In this document: positions 17,780-31,549 of the stretch, one piece after another | How positions within the stretch are numbered: the first letter of the stretch is position 1 | How the letters are laid out: each line of letters begins with the position of its first letter | Origin: Gemmatimonadota bacterium | GTDB lineage: Bacteria; Gemmatimonadota; Gemmatimonadetes; Longimicrobiales; Gaopeijiaceae | Length of the DNA stretch: 32,344 nt | Assembly: GCA_027623325.1 (NCBI GenBank) | Contig: JAQBXY010000034.1 | Span: forward strand, 1 to 32,344 | Direction: 5' to 3' | The notes under the pieces: model-generated | Databases searched by the model: none | Told to the model about the DNA's origin: nothing | Seen by the model: the letters and a program-made list of their open reading frames with translations, nothing else | Position numbers and translations under genes: made by a program

Positions 17780-18226
17780 ATGGGCATGAGAGGTGGTTTC
17801 CAACGGAAGTCGAAGGCGTCGTCCGAGGTTCCGTCCTCGTCGTTGGCCGATATCGCCTTCCTGTTGCTGATCTTCTTCATGGTCACGACGGTTTTCCAGG
17901 CTGACCGCGATCGACCGATCACGTGGCCCGAGGCTGGCGCCGCGGAGAAGATTGATGAAAAGCAGAAGAACATCCTCAATATTTGGATGGAGCGGGACGG
18001 TTCGATCTTTATCAACGATCAGCCCTACCCGATGGTAGATGTGTCTGCGGTCGTCGCCCCGCTCTACGCGGCGTCCGAACGAGCTCTCGTGATTTCCATT
18101 CGTGGCGATCGTGAGGTGCCGTACCGGTTCATGGATCAGGTCCAAAAGGAGTTGGTCGCAGCTGGTGTGGTTCGCGTGGTCTTCGCCGCGCAACTGGAGC
18201 AGAGCATGCAGAGGGAGAGACGATGA
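17780..18226 (+). CDS. exbD: biopolymer transport protein ExbD (copy 2)
   Basis: A second ExbD/TolR-type subunit, 148 aa, paralogous to the first. It has the same layout: a basic start (MGMRGGFQRKSKAS), a transmembrane helix with SSLADIAFLLLIFFMVTTVF and its membrane Asp, then a periplasmic domain. The two copies differ strongly in the periplasmic part, so they probably form a heteromeric stator rather than being a recent duplication. Its stop overlaps the tonB start as ATGA. Confidence 0.95.
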   Translation: MGMRGGFQRKSKASSEVPSSSLADIAFLLLIFFMVTTVFQADRDRPITWPEAGAAEKIDEKQKNILNIWMERDGSIFINDQPYPMVDVSAVVAPLYAASERALVISIRGDREVPYRFMDQVQKELVAAGVVRVVFAAQLEQSMQRERR

Positions 18227-18903
18227 CAGCCGAAGCCGTACCCGCCCTCGAGATCTTCGAGGAAACAGCGAACGAGCGCCTGAAGCGGACGTTCAGTTCT
18301 TGGTTCTGGGGTTCGATGATCGCCGCGACGGTCGTTCACTTCAGCACCTTCGCGTTCTGGCCGGAACTCACTGCGGAGGACTTCTCGTTCACCTCGGAGG
18401 AGTTGGAGGCGATCGAGCTCCCCCCGGAAATCGAGATTCCACCGCCGCCGCAGCAGATTTCGCGTCCCGCGACGCCCGTGATGGCCGCGGCCGACATCGA
18501 CGAGGACATCACCATTGCGCCGACCACGTTCGAAGAGAACCCGGTCGAGGACCTTCCTCCGCCGCCTGAGGACCCGGGCAACGACTTGTCGGCCGCTCCG
18601 ACCTTCACGCCGTTCACGGTAGCGCCGACGATTCAGAATCGGACCGAGGTCGTTCGGGCGATGGAGCGGGAGTATCCGCCGCTTCTACGTGACGCCGGAA
18701 TCGGTGGCACGGCCCGGGTATACTTCTTCATCGACGAGAACGGGCGGGTCCAGGATTACCGGATCGATCAGAGTTCCGGTCACCAGGCTCTTGATGCAGC
18801 GGCGCTCGCGGTTGCCGACGTGTACCGTTTCACAGCCGCGCTCAACCGAGACAAGAAGGTTCCCGTCTGGGTGTCGTTCGCGATTACCTTCCAGGTTCGG
18901 TAG
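18223..18903 (+). CDS. tonB: TonB family energy-transducer protein
   Basis: Links the ExbB/ExbD motor to outer-membrane receptors. The 226-residue protein has a cytoplasmic N-terminus, one transmembrane segment (about 27-46), a Pro/Glu-rich periplasmic stretch (about 60-128, with IPPPPQQ and LPPPPED) and a C-terminal TonB domain. That domain begins near YPPLLRDAGIGGTARVYFFI and ends with VSFAITFQVR. The N-terminal cytoplasmic part (about 26 residues) is longer than in E. coli TonB. No TonB-dependent receptor gene lies in the window. A strong terminator follows 24 nt after the stop. Confidence 0.93.
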   Translation: MTAEAVPALEIFEETANERLKRTFSSWFWGSMIAATVVHFSTFAFWPELTAEDFSFTSEELEAIELPPEIEIPPPPQQISRPATPVMAAADIDEDITIAPTTFEENPVEDLPPPPEDPGNDLSAAPTFTPFTVAPTIQNRTEVVRAMEREYPPLLRDAGIGGTARVYFFIDENGRVQDYRIDQSSGHQALDAAALAVADVYRFTAALNRDKKVPVWVSFAITFQVR

Positions 18904-18926
18904 CCCGGAGCCTAGAGGATTCCCAA

Positions 18927-18963
18927 GGGACCCCGCCGGTGCTCCGGCGGGGTCCCTTTTTTT
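18927..18963 (+). terminator. strong intrinsic terminator after tonB
   Basis: GGGACCCCGCCGG and CCGGCGGGGTCCC form a perfect 13-bp stem with a TGCT loop (18927-18956), followed directly by seven T. It ends the exb-tonB operon and separates it from yggS. Confidence 0.95.
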
Positions 18964-19000
18964 ATTGCAGGTTGTTTGCCCGTCACGAACATTCGAACCG

Positions 19001-19726
19001 ATGACGACCACGATGCCCGACACCTACGAGGCGCGCCTCGAGCGAACGCTCCCCGAAGTTCGGGATCGGATTGCGCGTGCCGCCGAGGTCGCGGGTCGCT
19101 CCGCGTCGTCGGTCCGACTCGTCGCTGTGACAAAGTCGCATCCGATCGAGGCGGTCGAAGCCGCGTTGAGCGCTGGGTTGACGGACCTGGGCGAGAATCG
19201 GGTCGAAGAGTTGGAGGCCAAAGTCGCGACGCTCGGACGCGGGGCGGCCACGTGGCACATGATCGGCCACCTCCAGAGCCGGAAGGCCTCGCGGCTCGTG
19301 AAGATCGCTGATGTGATTCATTCGGTGGACTCGTTCCGGCTTGCCGAGAGGATCTCGCGGGCCGCTACGGAAGATGGGCAACGGGTGACCGTACTGGCCC
19401 AGGTGAACACAACCGGAGAGGTTACCAAGGGGGGATTCGGCGTAGAAAGCGCGTCGGACGATATCCAGAGGATGGCGGAACTGCCTGGTTTGTTCGTAAA
19501 TGGACTCATGACCATGGCTCCGTTCGTGGACGACGAGGCTGTTCTGGGAGCTGCTTTCGGGGCGCTGCGGCGGCTCTCGGAGCGGCTCACCACGGCGACC
19601 GATCGGGTCGGGCACGAGCTCTCGATGGGCATGACCAACGACTTGGAGATCGCGATCCGCGAGGGCAGCACGATGGTTCGGATTGGGACGGCACTTTTCG
19701 GGGATAGAGCAGGGGGCGCACTATGA
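19001..19726 (+). CDS. yggS: PLP homeostasis protein YggS/YlmE/PROSC family
   Basis: Pyridoxal-phosphate-binding protein that keeps PLP and amino/keto acid pools balanced; no catalysis is established for the family. The 241-residue product has the PLP lysine Lys45 in LVAVTKSHP, the GENRVEE block, WHMIGHLQSRK, VNTTGEVTKGGF, GLMTMAP and the closing LSMGMTNDLEIAIREGSTMVRIGTALFG. The frame is open to 18689, but that runs back through the terminator, so ATG 19001 (or 19013) is the start. I see no SD. It overlaps divIVA by ATGA, matching the yggS-divIVA neighbourhood of many bacteria. Confidence 0.95.
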   Translation: MTTTMPDTYEARLERTLPEVRDRIARAAEVAGRSASSVRLVAVTKSHPIEAVEAALSAGLTDLGENRVEELEAKVATLGRGAATWHMIGHLQSRKASRLVKIADVIHSVDSFRLAERISRAATEDGQRVTVLAQVNTTGEVTKGGFGVESASDDIQRMAELPGLFVNGLMTMAPFVDDEAVLGAAFGALRRLSERLTTATDRVGHELSMGMTNDLEIAIREGSTMVRIGTALFGDRAGGAL

Positions 19727-24681: not shown

Positions 24682-25637
24682 GCGTGTCCAGTCAACGTCA
24701 CTCGCTAACAGTCGGCGAAGGTGAAGGGGGGCGCCTCGATCGTTTCGTCGCCGAACGGATGGCCCTATCGAGGACTCGTGTTCAGGGCCTCCTGGCCCAG
24801 GGCCTCATCACGCTGGACGACCGACCGGCGAAGAAGTCGGAGAAGGTCGAAGTCGGCTCACGCGTCGAGATCGTGGTCCCCCCGGCCGCCCCCGTGGAGA
24901 TGGTGGCAGAGGAGCTACCCCTCGATATCGTCTTCGAAGACGAATCGCTTCTGGTGGTGAACAAGGCGGCTGGAATGGTGGTGCATCCGGCACCGGGTCA
25001 CCGGTCGGGGACACTCGTCAATGCCTTGTTGTGGCATGTCTCGGACTTGGCGGGCGTGGGAGGACGAGCCCGTCCGGGAATCGTGCACCGCCTGGACCGG
25101 GACACCTCCGGGCTCCTCGTAGTGGCCAAGAACGACGTGGCCCATCATGCGCTCTCCGATGCCCTCCGCCGGCGCAAAGTGAAGCGTATCTATTTAGCCG
25201 CGGCCTGGGGTCACCTCGATGAGTCGCCTCGTACGATCGAGGCCTCGATCGGTCGCGATCCCAGGGACCGCAAGCGAATGGCCGTCGTCGAGGGTGGCCG
25301 CGGTGCAACGACCCGCGCGGAGGTTCTCGAGCGATGGCAGAGTGCCGACCTGCTCCGCATTGCCCTCAAGACCGGTCGAACCCATCAGATTCGCGTACAC
25401 CTCGCGCACATTGGACACCCGGTGGTGGGCGATCCTGTGTACGGCATCGGTTGGGAGCGTGGACTCGGGGGTCCGACACGACGCTGGGTCAACGAACTGG
25501 CTCACCGGACGACGCGCCAGTTCCTGCATGCCACGGAGTTGGCGTTCGATCACCCGCTGTCCGGTGAACGCAAGCGCTTTACGGCGGAGTTGCCGCCCGA
25601 TCTCGCCGAGGTGGCCGATTGGGCGAGAAATGCCTAA
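24678..25637 (+). CDS. rluD: RluD-family 23S rRNA pseudouridine synthase
   Basis: RluA/RluD-type pseudouridine synthase. The 319-residue product has an N-terminal S4 RNA-binding domain (about 18-65, LDRFVAERMALSRTRVQGLLAQG) and a catalytic domain with HRLDRDTSGLLVVAK (catalytic Asp140). Further blocks are LKTGRTHQIRVHLAHIGHPVVGDPVYG and the FLHATELAFDHP segment. RluD modifies 23S helix 69 in E. coli; the exact target here is inferred. It starts with TTG overlapping the ileS stop as TTGA; a GTG two codons later is an alternative. lspA, which often lies between ileS and rluD, is absent. Confidence 0.95.
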   Translation: MSVSSQRHSLTVGEGEGGRLDRFVAERMALSRTRVQGLLAQGLITLDDRPAKKSEKVEVGSRVEIVVPPAAPVEMVAEELPLDIVFEDESLLVVNKAAGMVVHPAPGHRSGTLVNALLWHVSDLAGVGGRARPGIVHRLDRDTSGLLVVAKNDVAHHALSDALRRRKVKRIYLAAAWGHLDESPRTIEASIGRDPRDRKRMAVVEGGRGATTRAEVLERWQSADLLRIALKTGRTHQIRVHLAHIGHPVVGDPVYGIGWERGLGGPTRRWVNELAHRTTRQFLHATELAFDHPLSGERKRFTAELPPDLAEVADWARNA

Positions 25638-25746
25638 ACGGGTAGTACTCAAGCCCTTTTTTATTCCGGCGCGCGGGCCGATACTTAGCGGCTGGGGCGT
25701 GACCTCGTGCCGATGGTCGTCCGAACTGAATCTCCCCCGGATGTAG

Positions 25747-27564
25747 ATGTCGGAACTCGATCCCAAACTCACGTTCGACTCGTTCGTCGTCGGCCCCGCC
25801 AACCGATTGGCGTCGGCCGCCGCCCGTCGAGCAGCCGAGTCCCCCGGCACGAGCTACAACCCGCTCTTCCTCTATTCGGCTCCAGGGCTCGGCAAGACAC
25901 ACATCCTGACTGCGATCGCCCATAAGTCGGCCAGCGGTGGGAAGGATCTCGCTGTCGAGTACATGGCGCTCGACGAGTACTTGAACCGGCTCGAGGGAAG
26001 TCTCAAATCGGGTAGTAGTGAGAAGGCGCTCTACGACCATCTCGATATTCTTCTGCTCGACGACGTGCAGTTTCTCACGGGCCAGCCGGAAGCCCAGGAA
26101 ATGCTGCTCAAGACGCTCGATCAACTGACCGCGGCGGGTGGCCAGATCGTCTTGGCGAGCGATCGCCCGCCGGCCGACATCAACGGGCTTGATGCGCGCC
26201 TGCTCTCGCGTTTTTCGGGCGGGCTCATCGTCGACCTGGGTGCTCCGGAATACGAAACGCGGGTGGCGATCATCATCAAGAAGGCCACCGATCGAGGGCA
26301 AACACTCGAACCCGGTGTCGCGGAAGCGGTCGCCAAGGCTCCCTTGAAGAACGTTCGGGAACTGGGCGGGATCCTCAACAAGATCTTCGCGACTCAGGAT
26401 CTCGAAGAACGACGGGTCTCGCTCGACGAGGTCGGGGCTCTGATGGCCGAGCAGGACAAGGCAGCGGCGCTCAGCACCGGGTCCGACGAATTCGGCTCCT
26501 TTTTGAGCGAGTTGGCGTCGACGGTCGCCTCTGCCGTCGAGTTGAAGGAAGAGCCTTGGAGAAAAGCGGTCCGTGAGGCCATCGAGTCTGCCGATCGGCA
26601 GGGTTTTTCGACGTTGAGACTCGTCGCGATGCAGGAAGGAGCGAAGTCGGCCAATTGGGAAAAGCTGATCGAGGCGTTCAAGGTCGACATTCACCGACTG
26701 AACGAAATCGACAACGAGCTCCAGCGACTCGGGAACCCGTGGCCTGAGGCCGCTCAGGGCGTTTTGGAGGATCCCGATCGCCTCGAGGAGGCCGAGGCAC
26801 TCCTGACCTCGGTGCGAGAGCGTCAGCGGCCCTTCCCCTCGCTCGGATCGGGTCCCCAGCTCCATGACCTCGAGGCGTTCGAGAATATCGCACTGAAGGC
26901 GGGTGCGCAGTTGGTCGGCGCGGAGAAGCCCGAATACAACCCTCTGTTCGTGTGGTCCGCCGACGAGGCTGTTGGCCGGACGCTTTTGGGTGCCGTGGGT
27001 CGTACCTACGGTGAGTCCTATCCTGAACTTCGGATGGCGGTGAGTTCGGTTTCCTTGTTCGCGGCCGACTTCATCCGTGCTTTGGGCGAGGGTGTGGCGG
27101 GGGCGTGGCGTGAGCGCTGGTGGACGGTAGATCTCCTCCTGGTCCACGGGATTCAGGAGTTGACCGAGACCGAACGGGCACAGGACGAGTTCTTTCACCT
27201 CTTCGAAGCGCTGCGTCGGAGGGGCGCCCGCATGATGTTCGTTGCGGACCGTCCGCCGTCAGCCATCGAAGACATCGACGACCGTCTCCGCTCACGATTC
27301 GAAGGTGGGTTGGTCCTCGAGTTGTCGACGGGCGTGGCCGGTCCGTTCGAGTTGATCGAGCCGCCAGAAGGAGAGGCTCCCGCCGACAGCGTCTTCATGC
27401 CTGCACTGGGATCGGCCGGGAGCGGCGATTCGGCACGGGCCTCCGAGCCCCAACCGGTCGCGATCGAACCCGCGAAGAAGGGCGGCGCCTGGTTCCCAGG
27501 CCCCGAGAACGTCGTCATCCACTGGCCCCGGATGCATGAACTCCTCATCGAGGAGCTCGACTGA
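25747..27564 (+). CDS. tandem DnaA-type AAA+ protein without DNA-binding domain
   Basis: A 605-residue protein of two DnaA/Hda-like modules. Module 1 (about 6-235) has FDSFVVGPANRLA, YNPLFLY, Walker A SAPGLGKT (44-51), Walker B LLLDDVQF (Asp105-Asp106), sensor I ASDR (137-140), box VII RLLSRF (arginine finger Arg155) and sensor II KNVRELGG (Arg204). A helical region (about 236-375) follows. Module 2 (about 376-530) repeats the plan with YNPLFVW. Its Walker A is degenerate (SADEAVGRT, Lys replaced by Arg) and its Walker B Asp pair is His467-Gly468, but RLRSRF with Arg517 is kept. The DnaA helix-turn-helix domain is absent; the C-terminal 75 residues are unassigned. It is not the replication initiator. 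It is probably an ATP-regulated scaffold or switch. Confidence 0.9.
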   Translation: MSELDPKLTFDSFVVGPANRLASAAARRAAESPGTSYNPLFLYSAPGLGKTHILTAIAHKSASGGKDLAVEYMALDEYLNRLEGSLKSGSSEKALYDHLDILLLDDVQFLTGQPEAQEMLLKTLDQLTAAGGQIVLASDRPPADINGLDARLLSRFSGGLIVDLGAPEYETRVAIIIKKATDRGQTLEPGVAEAVAKAPLKNVRELGGILNKIFATQDLEERRVSLDEVGALMAEQDKAAALSTGSDEFGSFLSELASTVASAVELKEEPWRKAVREAIESADRQGFSTLRLVAMQEGAKSANWEKLIEAFKVDIHRLNEIDNELQRLGNPWPEAAQGVLEDPDRLEEAEALLTSVRERQRPFPSLGSGPQLHDLEAFENIALKAGAQLVGAEKPEYNPLFVWSADEAVGRTLLGAVGRTYGESYPELRMAVSSVSLFAADFIRALGEGVAGAWRERWWTVDLLLVHGIQELTETERAQDEFFHLFEALRRRGARMMFVADRPPSAIEDIDDRLRSRFEGGLVLELSTGVAGPFELIEPPEGEAPADSVFMPALGSAGSGDSARASEPQPVAIEPAKKGGAWFPGPENVVIHWPRMHELLIEELD

Positions 27565-29183
27565 TGGCGATCGAAGGCGCCCTTCAGGACGTCAGCCTGG
27601 CCGATATCTGCCAGCTGCTCGGTATGGGGATGAAGACCGGCTGTTTGAGCATCACGGACCGCTCGAACTTCGGTTACATCTACTTCGGCAAAGGGCGTGT
27701 CATCTACGCGTCGGTCCTGAACCGAAAGGATCGGCTGGGCGAGTTGCTTGTCCGAAACCACGTGATCACTCGAAAGGACCTGTCCGCCGCCATGGAGCGG
27801 CAGGCGAGGGAGAAGGGCAAACGCCTCGGCGAGATCCTCGTCGAGATCGAGGCGTTGACCGAGGCGGACCTACAGAAGTACATCCAAAATCAGATCGAGG
27901 AGGCAGTGTACCACCTCTTCGCCTGGACCCAGGGCTCGTTCCATTTCGACACCGACCAGATGCCCGACGAGGACGGCATCTTCCTGGTGAGCATCCCGCC
28001 CGAGGCGCTGCTCATGGAGGGTGCGCGGCGGGTGGACGAGTGGAGTCAGGTCGAGAAGAAGATTCCGTCGTTCGATATCGTCTTCCAGTTGGACAAACAT
28101 CCGGACGAGTCGGATGAGGACGTCGAGCTGACGAAGGATCAAAAGAAGCTCCTCCCCTTCATCGACGGACAGAGAACGGTCCACGAGATCATGGACGAAG
28201 CCGGCCTCGTGGAGTTCGAGACTGGCAAGGGCCTCTATGGTCTCATCCAGGCGGGCTTCGTCTCCCGATCGGGGGAGCGCAGCACGACCGAGGAAACCGG
28301 CGGCGACGAGGCGCTTCAGCAGCACCTCAACGTCGGGATCGCGTACTACCGATCGGGGATGATGGAGGACGCGGGTCGCGAATTCGAACAGGCGCTCGCG
28401 GCCGATCCTAAGCAGGCTCGCGCGAACTTCATGATGGGCCTGATCGCTTTCCGGCGCGGCCGACTCGAGGAGGCGTTGGGGCACTTCGGCTCGATGCCGC
28501 CGGGCGCAGGAAACAACTACTCGGTCCACCGGAACACGGCGCTGATCCTCGAACTGCTCGGAAGGTACGATGAGGCGCTCGGAGCCCTGGACGAGGCGCT
28601 GGTCACCAAGCCGACGGATCCGGACGTGCATCTGGCGCGCGCGATCATTCACCTGAAACGCCGTGACATTCCGAAGTCGCTCGAAGCGCTGCGCCAGTAC
28701 CGTACGTCGCCGGCCGTGAAGAAGCCGGCCGCTGCCTACTACGCGTATACGGTGCTCGCGTCCGCAGTTGGAGGCGATCTAGAATACGCGGTATCGGTAG
28801 GTCGCGAAGGCCTCCGTCACTACCCCGACTCCGGTCCGATTCTGGTGAACTCCGGCGCGGTACTCGAGCGACGCGGAGAAGTCGAGGCTGCCGCCGCGCT
28901 TTACAAGCGCGCAGTCCAATTGCAGCAACCGCTCCCTCAAGCCCATAAGAATCTCGGGGATCAGGCTTACGCGCACGGAGACCATGAGGGTGCTCGTGCC
29001 CAGTACGAGAAGGCGGTAAAGCTGTCTCCTCGCTTGGGCGACGACGTGTATCTGCGTTTGGGGACCATGGCGTACAAGGCGAACGACCGTGACGTCGCGT
29101 TGCTTCTGTGGCGCCGTGCCCTGGACCTGAATCCCAACAACGAGGCCGTCCAGGCGAACCTGGAGATGTTGGCCGGCGAGTAG
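27564..29183 (+). CDS. DUF4388 (PATAN) domain protein with C-terminal TPR repeats
   Basis: A 539-residue cytoplasmic protein. The N-terminus is a DUF4388/PATAN domain (about 1-125: GALQDVSLADICQLLGMGMKTG, YIYFGKGRVIYA, RLGELLVRNHVITRKDL, QGSFHFD). A winged-helix-like segment follows (about 180-235: LLPFIDGQRTVHEIMDEAGL), then seven or so TPR-type helix pairs (about 255-535, for example AGREFEQALAADPKQARANFMMGL and ALDLNPNNEAVQANLEML). PATAN domains are common in two-component and gliding-related proteins as interaction modules. Its ATG shares one base with the preceding stop (TGATG), so it is coupled to the DnaA-like gene. Function unknown. Confidence 0.88.
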   Translation: MAIEGALQDVSLADICQLLGMGMKTGCLSITDRSNFGYIYFGKGRVIYASVLNRKDRLGELLVRNHVITRKDLSAAMERQAREKGKRLGEILVEIEALTEADLQKYIQNQIEEAVYHLFAWTQGSFHFDTDQMPDEDGIFLVSIPPEALLMEGARRVDEWSQVEKKIPSFDIVFQLDKHPDESDEDVELTKDQKKLLPFIDGQRTVHEIMDEAGLVEFETGKGLYGLIQAGFVSRSGERSTTEETGGDEALQQHLNVGIAYYRSGMMEDAGREFEQALAADPKQARANFMMGLIAFRRGRLEEALGHFGSMPPGAGNNYSVHRNTALILELLGRYDEALGALDEALVTKPTDPDVHLARAIIHLKRRDIPKSLEALRQYRTSPAVKKPAAAYYAYTVLASAVGGDLEYAVSVGREGLRHYPDSGPILVNSGAVLERRGEVEAAAALYKRAVQLQQPLPQAHKNLGDQAYAHGDHEGARAQYEKAVKLSPRLGDDVYLRLGTMAYKANDRDVALLLWRRALDLNPNNEAVQANLEMLAGE

Positions 29184-29184
29184 A

Positions 29185-30222
29185 GTGTCGAGGCTCCACG
29201 CCGAATGGGTCCGAACGCTGATTCAGGACGTGCGGTACTGTCTGATAGGTGGTGGAATCGTCCTGGGCTTGATCGTGTCGACCGCCCAAAGCGTCAGGGG
29301 CCAACTTCCGACGGTGCTCGATGGTCAGGTCTATTCCGTACTGGAGGGGCAGCGGGCGCAGGTGCGCTTCGCGCCACAGGACGCTAGGGTCGCCGCGCGT
29401 GTTTTGGGCCTGCTCGACAGCCAACCACCCCTCCCAGGGCTCCCACCGGACCTGCCGAACGGCGTGGACGCGGTGCTCGCCCATTCGCCCCAGGCCTTCG
29501 ACGAATTGACGGGCGGGGTCGTGCCGGAGTGGCGCGCCGGGGTAGCGATCCCCGACCTGAACATGCTCGTCATGCCCACGGGCGAGGGCGTGCGTGTCGT
29601 CGATGGCGAGGGTCTGCGGACGCTGCGCCACGAGTGGGCTCACCTCGGCCTGCATGGCTACCTGGGCGACCTCCGCGCCCCCCGTTGGTTCGACGAGGGC
29701 TATGCGCAGTGGGCATCAGGCGGATTCGATGCGGCCGAGGCGTGGCGTCTCCGTGTGCTGATCGCGCTCGGGCGGGCCCCCGCGCTCGACTCTCTCGACC
29801 TTCGCTGGCCCTCCGGTCGAGAGGAGGCACTCTCGGCCTATCTTCTGTCTGCCAGTGCCTTGAACTATTTGCTGGAGCCGAGCGGCGAACGCGGCCTGGA
29901 GCTGTTCTTCGAACGGTGGCGAAGGGATCGGTCCTTCGACTCGGCGTTTCTGGAGACGTTCGGGGTCACCAGCGGTCAGTTCGAGGAAGACTGGCGACGG
30001 CACGTGCGCCAGCGCTATGGATGGCTCTTCGTGGTGAGTCGCTCGAGTGTCTTCTGGTCGCTCTTGGCACTGGTCTTGCTCTTCATGGTCAGAGTCCGGG
30101 CGCGTCACAATCGAGAGAGACTTGCGAGGCTTCGCGCACGGGAAATCCCGGACGACCCCGCGTTCTGGGAGGGTGTCTCCCAAACGGGGGGACCCGTCGA
30201 ACCGCCCTCCGGGGTAGGATGA
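29185..30222 (+). CDS. membrane-anchored HExxH peptidase (peptidase MA-like)
   Basis: A 345-residue protein with an N-terminal signal or anchor (about 17-36) and a C-terminal transmembrane segment (about 288-306) followed by a basic cytoplasmic tail. The gluzincin-type zinc motif HEWAH is at 149-153, and the third ligand Glu171 lies in WFDEGYAQW. This spacing fits peptidase MA-like (M1-related) proteins. The catalytic domain should face the periplasm. The start is a GTG one nt after the previous stop. The peptidase call is by motif; no substrate is known. Position and coupling suggest it works with the DnaA-like/DUF4388 pair. Confidence 0.78.
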   Translation: MSRLHAEWVRTLIQDVRYCLIGGGIVLGLIVSTAQSVRGQLPTVLDGQVYSVLEGQRAQVRFAPQDARVAARVLGLLDSQPPLPGLPPDLPNGVDAVLAHSPQAFDELTGGVVPEWRAGVAIPDLNMLVMPTGEGVRVVDGEGLRTLRHEWAHLGLHGYLGDLRAPRWFDEGYAQWASGGFDAAEAWRLRVLIALGRAPALDSLDLRWPSGREEALSAYLLSASALNYLLEPSGERGLELFFERWRRDRSFDSAFLETFGVTSGQFEEDWRRHVRQRYGWLFVVSRSSVFWSLLALVLLFMVRVRARHNRERLARLRAREIPDDPAFWEGVSQTGGPVEPPSGVG

Positions 30223-30226
30223 GGCC

Positions 30227-31549
30227 ATGATTGATCGCTCGAAGTCGCGCATTCTCGTCGTCGACGACGATACCGACGGACTCGAAGTACTCGAGTTGCG
30301 TCTCACGCACGCGGGCTACGACGTCGAGACCGCAGACAGCGCCGAAAAAGCGCTCGCACGTGTGAGTGCGTTCGATCCCGGGATGATCGTGACCGATGTC
30401 CGCATGTCGGGCATGACCGGCCTCGAACTGCTGGAGAAGGTGCGGGGGGCCATGGAAGGTGTCGAGGTCGTCGTCATGACGGCTCACGACGATATGGAGA
30501 CGGCGGTTCGGGCCATGAAGTCCGGAGCGTTCGACTTCCTTGTGAAGCCCGTCGATCCCAAGGCCGTTCAGGCGTTGGCCGACCGCTGCTTCCGCGATCG
30601 TGCGCTGACCGAGGGAAGCGAGATCCCCGAGGCACAGGCAGCCCTCCCTCGAAGTCGGCTCATCGGCCGTGACCCACGCATGATCGAGATCTACAAGACG
30701 ATCGGTGTGCTCGCCGCGAACCGCGCCACCGTGCTCATCCGTGGTGAGACCGGGACGGGCAAGGAGGTCATCGCCCGAGGCATTCACGAGAATTCGGGAC
30801 ATTCCGCCGAGCCCTTCATTGCCGTGAACTGCACCGCGTTGACGGACACACTGCTCGAATCGGAGCTGTTCGGACACGTCAAGGGAGCCTTCACCGGGGC
30901 GACGCACGCTCGGAAGGGGTACTTCGAGATGGCCGGGAAGGGGACGATCTTCCTCGACGAGATCGGGGACACCAGTCCAGACTTCCAGACGAAGTTGCTC
31001 CGAGTACTCCAGGAGCGGCGCTTCTACCCCGTGGGTGGTGAGGACTCCAAGAAGACCGGCGCACGCGTCATCGCGGCTACCCACCAGCCGATCGAGGAGC
31101 TCATCGAGGCCGGACGCTTCCGCGAGGACCTGTACTTCCGCCTCAAGGTCGTCGGCATCGAGGTGCCGCCGCTCCGCGAGCGTCCCGGAGACATCGAGCT
31201 CGTCGCGGTCGCGCTGCTCGGTCGGATCCGTGAGGAGACCCAGCGCGACGTCCGACGCATCTCGGATGAGGCCGTTGCGCGTCTGCAGGCCTACAGTTGG
31301 CCCGGGAACGTGCGTGAACTCGAGAACGCGCTCCTGCGTGCTGCGATCGTGGCACGCGGCACCGTCATCGGTGCCGACCATCTCATCCTCGGCGAAGCGG
31401 ATCAGCACGGCCCCGCCGATTTCACATTGGCCGGTGCGATCGCACGGCAGGTAGCCCTCGCGATGGACAGGGTCGCCGGTGACGAGGCGGCTGCGTCAGA
31501 GCTTCTTGGCATTACCGTGAAGGAGCTCAAGAAGCACCTCAGCGATTGA
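30227..31549 (+). CDS. NtrC-family sigma-54-dependent response regulator
   Basis: A 440-residue transcription activator. The receiver domain (about 7-120) has the acidic pocket VVDDD and phospho-acceptor Asp57 in IVTDVRMSG, then KPVD with the conserved Lys. The sigma-54 activator AAA+ domain (about 145-380) has Walker A GETGTGKE (173-180), GAFTGA (220-225), Walker B GTIFLDEIGD and the arginine-finger region FREDLYFRL. A short Fis-type helix-turn-helix closes it (AAASELLGITVKELKKHL). All key residues for phosphorylation, ATP hydrolysis and sigma-54 contact are present. No histidine kinase lies in the window. It is 4 nt from the peptidase gene and ends the four-gene unit. Confidence 0.95.
   Translation: MIDRSKSRILVVDDDTDGLEVLELRLTHAGYDVETADSAEKALARVSAFDPGMIVTDVRMSGMTGLELLEKVRGAMEGVEVVVMTAHDDMETAVRAMKSGAFDFLVKPVDPKAVQALADRCFRDRALTEGSEIPEAQAALPRSRLIGRDPRMIEIYKTIGVLAANRATVLIRGETGTGKEVIARGIHENSGHSAEPFIAVNCTALTDTLLESELFGHVKGAFTGATHARKGYFEMAGKGTIFLDEIGDTSPDFQTKLLRVLQERRFYPVGGEDSKKTGARVIAATHQPIEELIEAGRFREDLYFRLKVVGIEVPPLRERPGDIELVAVALLGRIREETQRDVRRISDEAVARLQAYSWPGNVRELENALLRAAIVARGTVIGADHLILGEADQHGPADFTLAGAIARQVALAMDRVAGDEAAASELLGITVKELKKHLSD

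Follow-up and report, generated by a model that had tools for sequence, protein, structure and literature searches.

A tandem DnaA-type ATPase with a predicted pseudo-ATPase module, associated with an MglA, chemosensory and PATAN gene neighbourhood in Gemmatimonadota

What does a DnaA-like protein do when two ATPase modules are joined in one chain and the DNA-binding domain of the initiator is missing? DnaA is usually viewed as a replication protein, and Hda as its regulator. The question is raised by a gene in the window, that is, the whole stretch of 32,344 nucleotides of a Gemmatimonadota contig that was analysed here. Its product was found to contain two DnaA-type AAA+ modules with a helical linker in between; a disordered stretch follows, and the chain ends in a conserved C-terminal peptide. 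The reading preferred here, to which a probability of roughly 0.55 is given, is that the protein would be an ATP switch derived from the core of DnaA and serving an MglA/PATAN polarity and motility module, with module 2 as a pseudo-protomer that docks on module 1.

Architecture of the protein and its first module

The gene call and its coordinates in the original prediction were right, as judged from the open reading frame and its translation. A frame or sequencing artefact was rejected because a full-length homologue with 76% identity occurs in the same genus, and a minus-strand ORF (25579-27198) was rejected as the true gene because Pfam matches and conserved homologues exist for the product of the plus strand. 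A scan of 84,980 species genomes, made with patterns from the window's own lineage, returned 46 homologues with the same architecture, some of them cut by contig ends, together with three ordinary DnaA genes. All 46 are labelled Gemmatimonadota, except for one contig labelled Gammaproteobacteria (L113), whose MAG shares its numbered series with two of the Gemmatimonadetes records. Counts out of 41 below refer to an alignment of the window's taxonomic family that comprises 40 of the 46 homologues and the window protein. The gene and its parts other than module 2 are as follows.

25747..27564, + strand: tandem DnaA-like ATPase gene (605 aa; ORF and translation)
25756..26412, + strand: module 1, DnaA domain III of predicted active type (residues 4-222; PF00308 E 2.9e-47; Z 29.9 to 8btg_B)
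25876..25899, + strand: Walker A of module 1 (residues 44-51; K50 in 41/41)
26059..26064, + strand: Walker B of module 1, D105-D106 (41/41 each)
26209..26211, + strand: box VII arginine finger of module 1, R155 (41/41)
26356..26358, + strand: sensor II of module 1, R204 (38/41)
26494..26844, + strand: family-specific helical linker domain (residues 250-366; linker profile; model helical, pLDDT ~90)
27373..27486, + strand: disordered, poorly conserved stretch (residues 543-580; pLDDT <50; identity 33-48% within the genus)
27487..27561, + strand: conserved C-terminal peptide (residues 581-605, with E587, W593, P594 and E602; retained in relatives without module 2)

In Pfam scans, Bac_DnaA (PF00308) was found to match each half of the protein separately: module 1 at residues 4-163 (E 2.9e-47) and the second half, when scanned alone, at approximately residues 380-524 (E 2.7e-28), so that the suggested membership of the second half in the DnaA family is borne out. 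Judged from these matches, the DnaA-type repeat is not due to chance. The landmarks predicted for module 1 (Walker A at 44-51, D105/D106, R155 and R204) were all located at their places by translation and residue check, and the family alignment shows K50, D105, D106 and R155 to be invariant; with this full residue set, module 1 is a predicted active DnaA-type ATPase. Two pore positions deviate, with Glu or Gln for R245 and Arg or Lys for H252 in E. coli DnaA numbering. The nearest solved structures are 8btg, 8bv3 and 2z4r. The match of the modelled module to 8btg_B (Z 29.9, rmsd 1.8, 235 residues) refers to module 1 and not to the linker or module 2, as the VIA-align rows cover mainly residues 1-246. 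An AlphaFold2 model of the full chain, computed with 37 family sequences, has a mean pLDDT of 85 and a pTM of 0.50; its individual domains are good, and the mutual placement of the modules is not defined.

The linker was searched by sequence against Pfam and the PDB, and no known domain scored over the cut-off. Modelled alone from a single sequence, it gave a poor model (pLDDT 56). Its profile, run on the collected loci, finds the tandem DnaA-like family and nothing else convincing. Residues 543-605 are predicted to be disordered, yet their final part is conserved in sequence, and this tail persists in the lineages without module 2, suggesting that it matters independently of that module. The EE(L)D-like end of the chain and the adjacent TPR gene invite the speculation that the peptide might contact a TPR domain.

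A second module with an eroded nucleotide face

The second module was found at the following positions, together with its eroded and its conserved elements.

26866..27327, + strand: module 2, predicted DnaA-type pseudo-ATPase without lid (residues 374-527; PF00308 E 2.7e-28; one clade, support 100)
26956..26982, + strand: eroded P-loop of module 2 (residues 404-412, with G410 at the Lys position; alignment with module 1, DnaA and intact relatives)
27091..27123, + strand: GVAGAWRERWW, in the region of the DnaA initiator-specific motif (residues 449-459; invariant in 41 family members)
27145..27150, + strand: eroded Walker B of module 2, H467-G468 (family alignment)
27283..27297, + strand: box VII arginines R513 and R517 of module 2 (41/41 each; R517 in 26/27 in other families with module 2)

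When the PDB was searched with module 2 alone, DnaA chains only were returned (best E 2.7e-23), and the AlphaFold2 pLDDT of the module is mostly >93. YNPLFVW (397-403) and RLRSRF (513-518) lie where they had been placed, and the Walker B pair is indeed His-Gly. The proposed replacement of the P-loop Lys by Arg was one register off: once module 1 and module 2 are aligned with DnaA, the K50 column holds G410, and T51 pairs with R411. Across the 41 sequences, the Lys position is occupied by Ala in 25, Gly in 8, Leu in 3, Thr in 3 and residues seen once each in the rest, whereas the Walker B positions are mostly His or Tyr and Gly, hence mostly non-acidic. The module also lacks the lid and sensor II in the window's family. 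With P-loop and Walker B lost lineage-wide, the view that module 2 is related to DnaA domain III and has a dead nucleotide site is upheld, and in the window's lineage the module is predicted to be a pseudo-ATPase.

This state holds for the 41 sequences of the window's family and does not extend to the other taxonomic families, in which the module 2 P-loop is mostly intact (Walker A Lys in 26/27), often with a lid, and the box VII finger arginine is likewise present in 26/27 of those having module 2. In two further lineages (f9, and f3 on the evidence of L061), the protein is only ~390-470 aa long and consists of module 1, linker and tail. In a tree built from the module sequences and 13 DnaA proteins, module 2 forms one clade (support 100) and module 1 another (91), and the two together stand apart from DnaA (support 100). 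Both modules thus stem from one ancient internal duplication that predates the split of the sampled taxonomic families, and, given this tree, the absence of module 2 from f9 and f3 is most simply a loss.

What has been kept in module 2 is more than the arginine finger, to which the original prediction had limited it. Its invariant columns (25/154) include GVAGAWRERWW, R477, H484, R513, R517, G521 and L522; thus R513, R477, H484 and L522 are 41/41 as well, and D501 (37/41) and R502 (39/41) are nearly so. Conservation was compared module by module as amino-acid identity to the six closest relatives, all within the genus: module 1 reaches 84-88%, module 2 77-83%, the linker 71-73% and the disordered part 33-48%. 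Such identity, along with the invariant columns, suggests a maintained rather than a decaying domain. The correspondence with E. coli DnaA was anchored on Walker B, the E. coli numbering of which agrees with the spacing to R281/R285. By this correspondence, R477 equals R245, H484 equals H252, R513 equals R281, R517 equals R285 and L522 equals L290, and the position of R227 is Trp in 41/41. In DnaA, the arginine finger is R285, on the face that lies across from the ATP site; R281, R227 and Leu290 are required for contacts between domains III, and Val211/Arg245 are single-stranded DNA-binding motifs (PMC5742627). The positions kept in module 2 are thus interface, finger and single-stranded DNA positions of DnaA, and in the window's lineage the nucleotide face was lost and the finger face retained.

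Does module 2 then donate an arginine to module 1? Conservation of R513 and R517 in 41/41 after the loss of the nucleotide site is consistent with R517 reaching, in cis or in trans, the ATP of a module 1. Against donation as the sole purpose of the module stand the finger of module 1 itself, R155, which is also 41/41, and the two lineages that retain module 1, linker and tail without module 2. Since R155 and R517 are equally conserved, pairing may simply take place between two copies of module 1. Natural variants of both fingers occur: in L027 the module 1 finger is lost (Gly) and module 2 is intact, and in L028 the module 2 finger is lost (Val).

The same data bear on the alternative that module 2 is a protein- or nucleic-acid-binding platform and not an arginine donor, module 1 self-assembling via its own R155. 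The invariant surface formed by GVAGAWRERWW, R477, H484 and box VII would in that case bind a partner like the DUF4388-TPR protein described below, or single-stranded DNA. The largest invariant block of the module is 449-459 and not box VII, R477 and H484 correspond to DnaA pore positions, R155 is invariant, and lineages without module 2 exist, all of which would fit a platform. However, R513 and R517 are invariant though the fold does not require them for such a role, and the retained DnaA interface positions sit on the face opposite the ATP site. We regard the platform as rather unlikely, though as an alternative to be taken seriously.

Gene neighbourhood, co-occurrence and known relatives

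A simple ORF caller, BLAST and Pfam served to read the neighbourhoods of the gene in relatives. In loci from outside the window's family, the upstream order is CheA, CheC/CheX, a large TPR protein, a DUF4388-TPR protein, TPR-Roadblock, Roadblock, Roadblock and an MglA-type GTPase, and the downstream order is a DUF4388-TPR protein, then CheR, CheD, CheB, CheW and a Peptidase_MA protein, some of these genes being absent or uncalled in some loci. In 24/25 of these loci, mglA lies immediately 5' of the DnaA-like gene (from a 12 bp overlap to a gap of 108 bp); at the one other locus the distance is 731 bp, probably because the protein start aligned poorly. The DUF4388-TPR gene lies directly 3' of the DnaA-like gene in 75/79 loci, and the other four are at or near a contig edge. 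The linker profile is present in 236/395 sampled genomes of the phylum, as a rule in one copy each. Among 149 genomes of the class, mglA was found in 62/62 carriers of the tandem gene against 31/87 non-carriers, and within the window's family in 12/12 carriers against 7/31 others, both counts ignoring relatedness. PilM was matched in 148/149 genomes of the class and so provides no test of a pilus link. Many relatives carry a second mglA besides the operon copy. Judged by conserved adjacency, the DnaA-like gene is part of an mglA/chemosensory/PATAN gene module in relatives.

The window's family departs from this arrangement, as the DnaA-like gene no longer adjoins mglA or che genes there. In the window's genome, no CheW domain and no Roadblock domain was found, and the single mglA (L059:8803-9381; G000:C2:41805-42380) lies beside recR, ybaB and dnaX. 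Chemosensory genes were thus lost from the lineage, which kept a trio of DnaA-like, DUF4388-TPR and Peptidase_MA genes, and the role in the window's family may have shifted. The two companions in the window are as follows.

27564..29183, + strand: DUF4388(PATAN)-TPR protein with two MshEN-type motifs, candidate partner (PF14332; NF053729; adjacent in 75/79 loci)
29185..30222, + strand: Peptidase_MA-like protein accompanying the pair (PF13485; in most neighbourhoods)

The first is the sole DUF4388 protein of the window's genome. It passes the cut-off of NCBIfam NF053729, an MshEN-type c-di-GMP domain (49.8 vs 38 bits), with the motifs at residues 57-80 and 87-110. The published MshEN-type motif includes a turn glycine (PMC5013675), which is absent from both window copies and present in some relatives; on this pattern, c-di-GMP binding by the DUF4388-TPR protein is plausible. 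Its gene accompanies the DnaA-like gene phylum-wide, and the protein is a candidate receptor for c-di-GMP. The Peptidase_MA-like protein has a hydrophobic C-terminal segment and occurs also in full chemosensory operons. In the window, and likewise in some close relatives, the next gene after the trio encodes an NtrC-type sigma-54 response regulator (30227-31549), which may mark a lineage-specific rewiring that followed the loss of the chemosensory genes. Elsewhere in the window, the frames of TonB (18223-18903) and the alanine racemase-like YggS (18689-19726) overlap by ~200 bases as listed, and the start of YggS is probably farther downstream.

Could module 2 in the window's lineage be a functionless remnant that decays after the loss of chemosensory genes? 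The losses of Che/Roadblock genes and of the nucleotide site do coincide in the window's family. The 77-83% identity of the module within the genus and its 25 invariant columns across the family argue otherwise, and an f2 member (L016) is also without the P-loop, though its locus keeps mglA, Roadblock and che genes. Decay of this kind is considered very improbable.

How does the protein compare with its known relatives? Module 1 shares with DnaA domain III the fold, Walker A and B, sensor I, the box VII arginines and sensor II, and both modules share the Bac_DnaA match. Unlike DnaA, the 605-aa protein has two modules per chain, one of them without a nucleotide site, lacks the DNA-binding domain IV and the N-terminal domain I, and adds the helical linker and the C-terminal peptide; furthermore, in relatives its gene adjoins mglA and PATAN genes, and the window's genome has a separate true DnaA on contig C8. 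No domain IV match was obtained in a Pfam scan of the 605-aa protein, the C-terminal part being disorder and a short peptide, and the DnaA equivalog TIGR00362 scored 341.4 bits summed over two stretches, below its cut-off of 343.9. The earlier exclusion of the initiator, based on the missing domain IV, agrees with the Pfam result and with the separate DnaA. Hda, which together with the sliding clamp promotes hydrolysis of the ATP bound to DnaA, is likewise a DnaA-like AAA+ protein without domain IV, but has ~230 aa against 605 aa with tandem modules and a phylum-specific linker; the Hda equivalog TIGR03420 gave 105.5 bits against a cut-off of 194.8, in keeping with the claim that the protein is not Hda.

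DnaA and Hda are nonetheless the closest relatives, and with a true DnaA in the same genome, an Hda-like replication regulator might be envisaged, in which mixed assemblies with DnaA would link initiation to surface or motility signals. This alternative is improbable: the Hda score falls far short, no clamp-binding motif was seen at the N-terminus, the genes that recur beside the tandem gene are those of mglA, che and PATAN type and not those of replication, and many genomes of the phylum contain DnaA and lack the tandem family.

In the polarity modules of Myxococcus xanthus, MglA is combined with the Roadblock protein MglB. The operon of the relatives likewise combines mglA with Roadblock genes and with genes of DUF4388/PATAN type. 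That PATAN genes occur close to mglA genes of group 1 is known from a survey of prokaryotic Ras-like GTPases, in which a DnaA-type ATPase is not mentioned (PMC4316618). In the literature searched, which did not cover most subscription papers, no description was found of a DnaA-type protein in MglA/PATAN/chemosensory modules. As to architecture, the pairing of an active with an inactive module is a general design among tandem (type II) AAA+ proteins. The present protein resembles them in having one active-type and one inactive ATPase module per chain, and differs in that both modules are of the DnaA clade and the inactive one has no lid.

Proposed role and meaning

DnaA-clade assemblies are open filaments and not closed rings. 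In the preferred explanation, a two-module relative of DnaA domain III would have been taken out of replication and would now act, within a signalling module of Gemmatimonadota, as a switch whose assembly is driven by ATP. That signalling module would consist of chemosensory proteins, the Ras-like GTPase MglA, Roadblock proteins and PATAN/DUF4388-TPR adaptors, and its probable task is the control of cell polarity or of motility driven by pili. Module 1 would bind and hydrolyse ATP. Decay of the nucleotide face with retention of the opposite face and R513/R517 suggests that module 2 acts as a built-in pseudo-protomer, which, via its box VII arginine face, would dock on a module 1 at its ATP face, thereby capping a DnaA-like assembly or fixing its length. 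The linker and C-terminal peptide may tether the protein to partners, most likely the adjacent DUF4388-TPR protein.

A more far-reaching version, which we put forward only tentatively, is that the DnaA assembly mechanism, namely ATP-gated head-to-tail contacts through the arginine finger, was recruited as the ATP switch of a small-GTPase polarity system, where a lineage-specific pseudo-ATPase cap would size the assembly and signal to a c-di-GMP-sensing PATAN-TPR adaptor.

What is new here is a DnaA-like double ATPase tied to a chemosensory/MglA polarity and movement gene neighbourhood in Gemmatimonadota, that is, a known fold, the DnaA ATPase core, in a new architecture and a new setting. The series running from an intact tandem through a dead module 2 to the loss of module 2 offers a natural test of each face of a DnaA protomer. 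With this family, the control of bacterial polarity and motility gains a candidate ATPase component, and the use of DnaA-style assembly outside replication becomes open to test.
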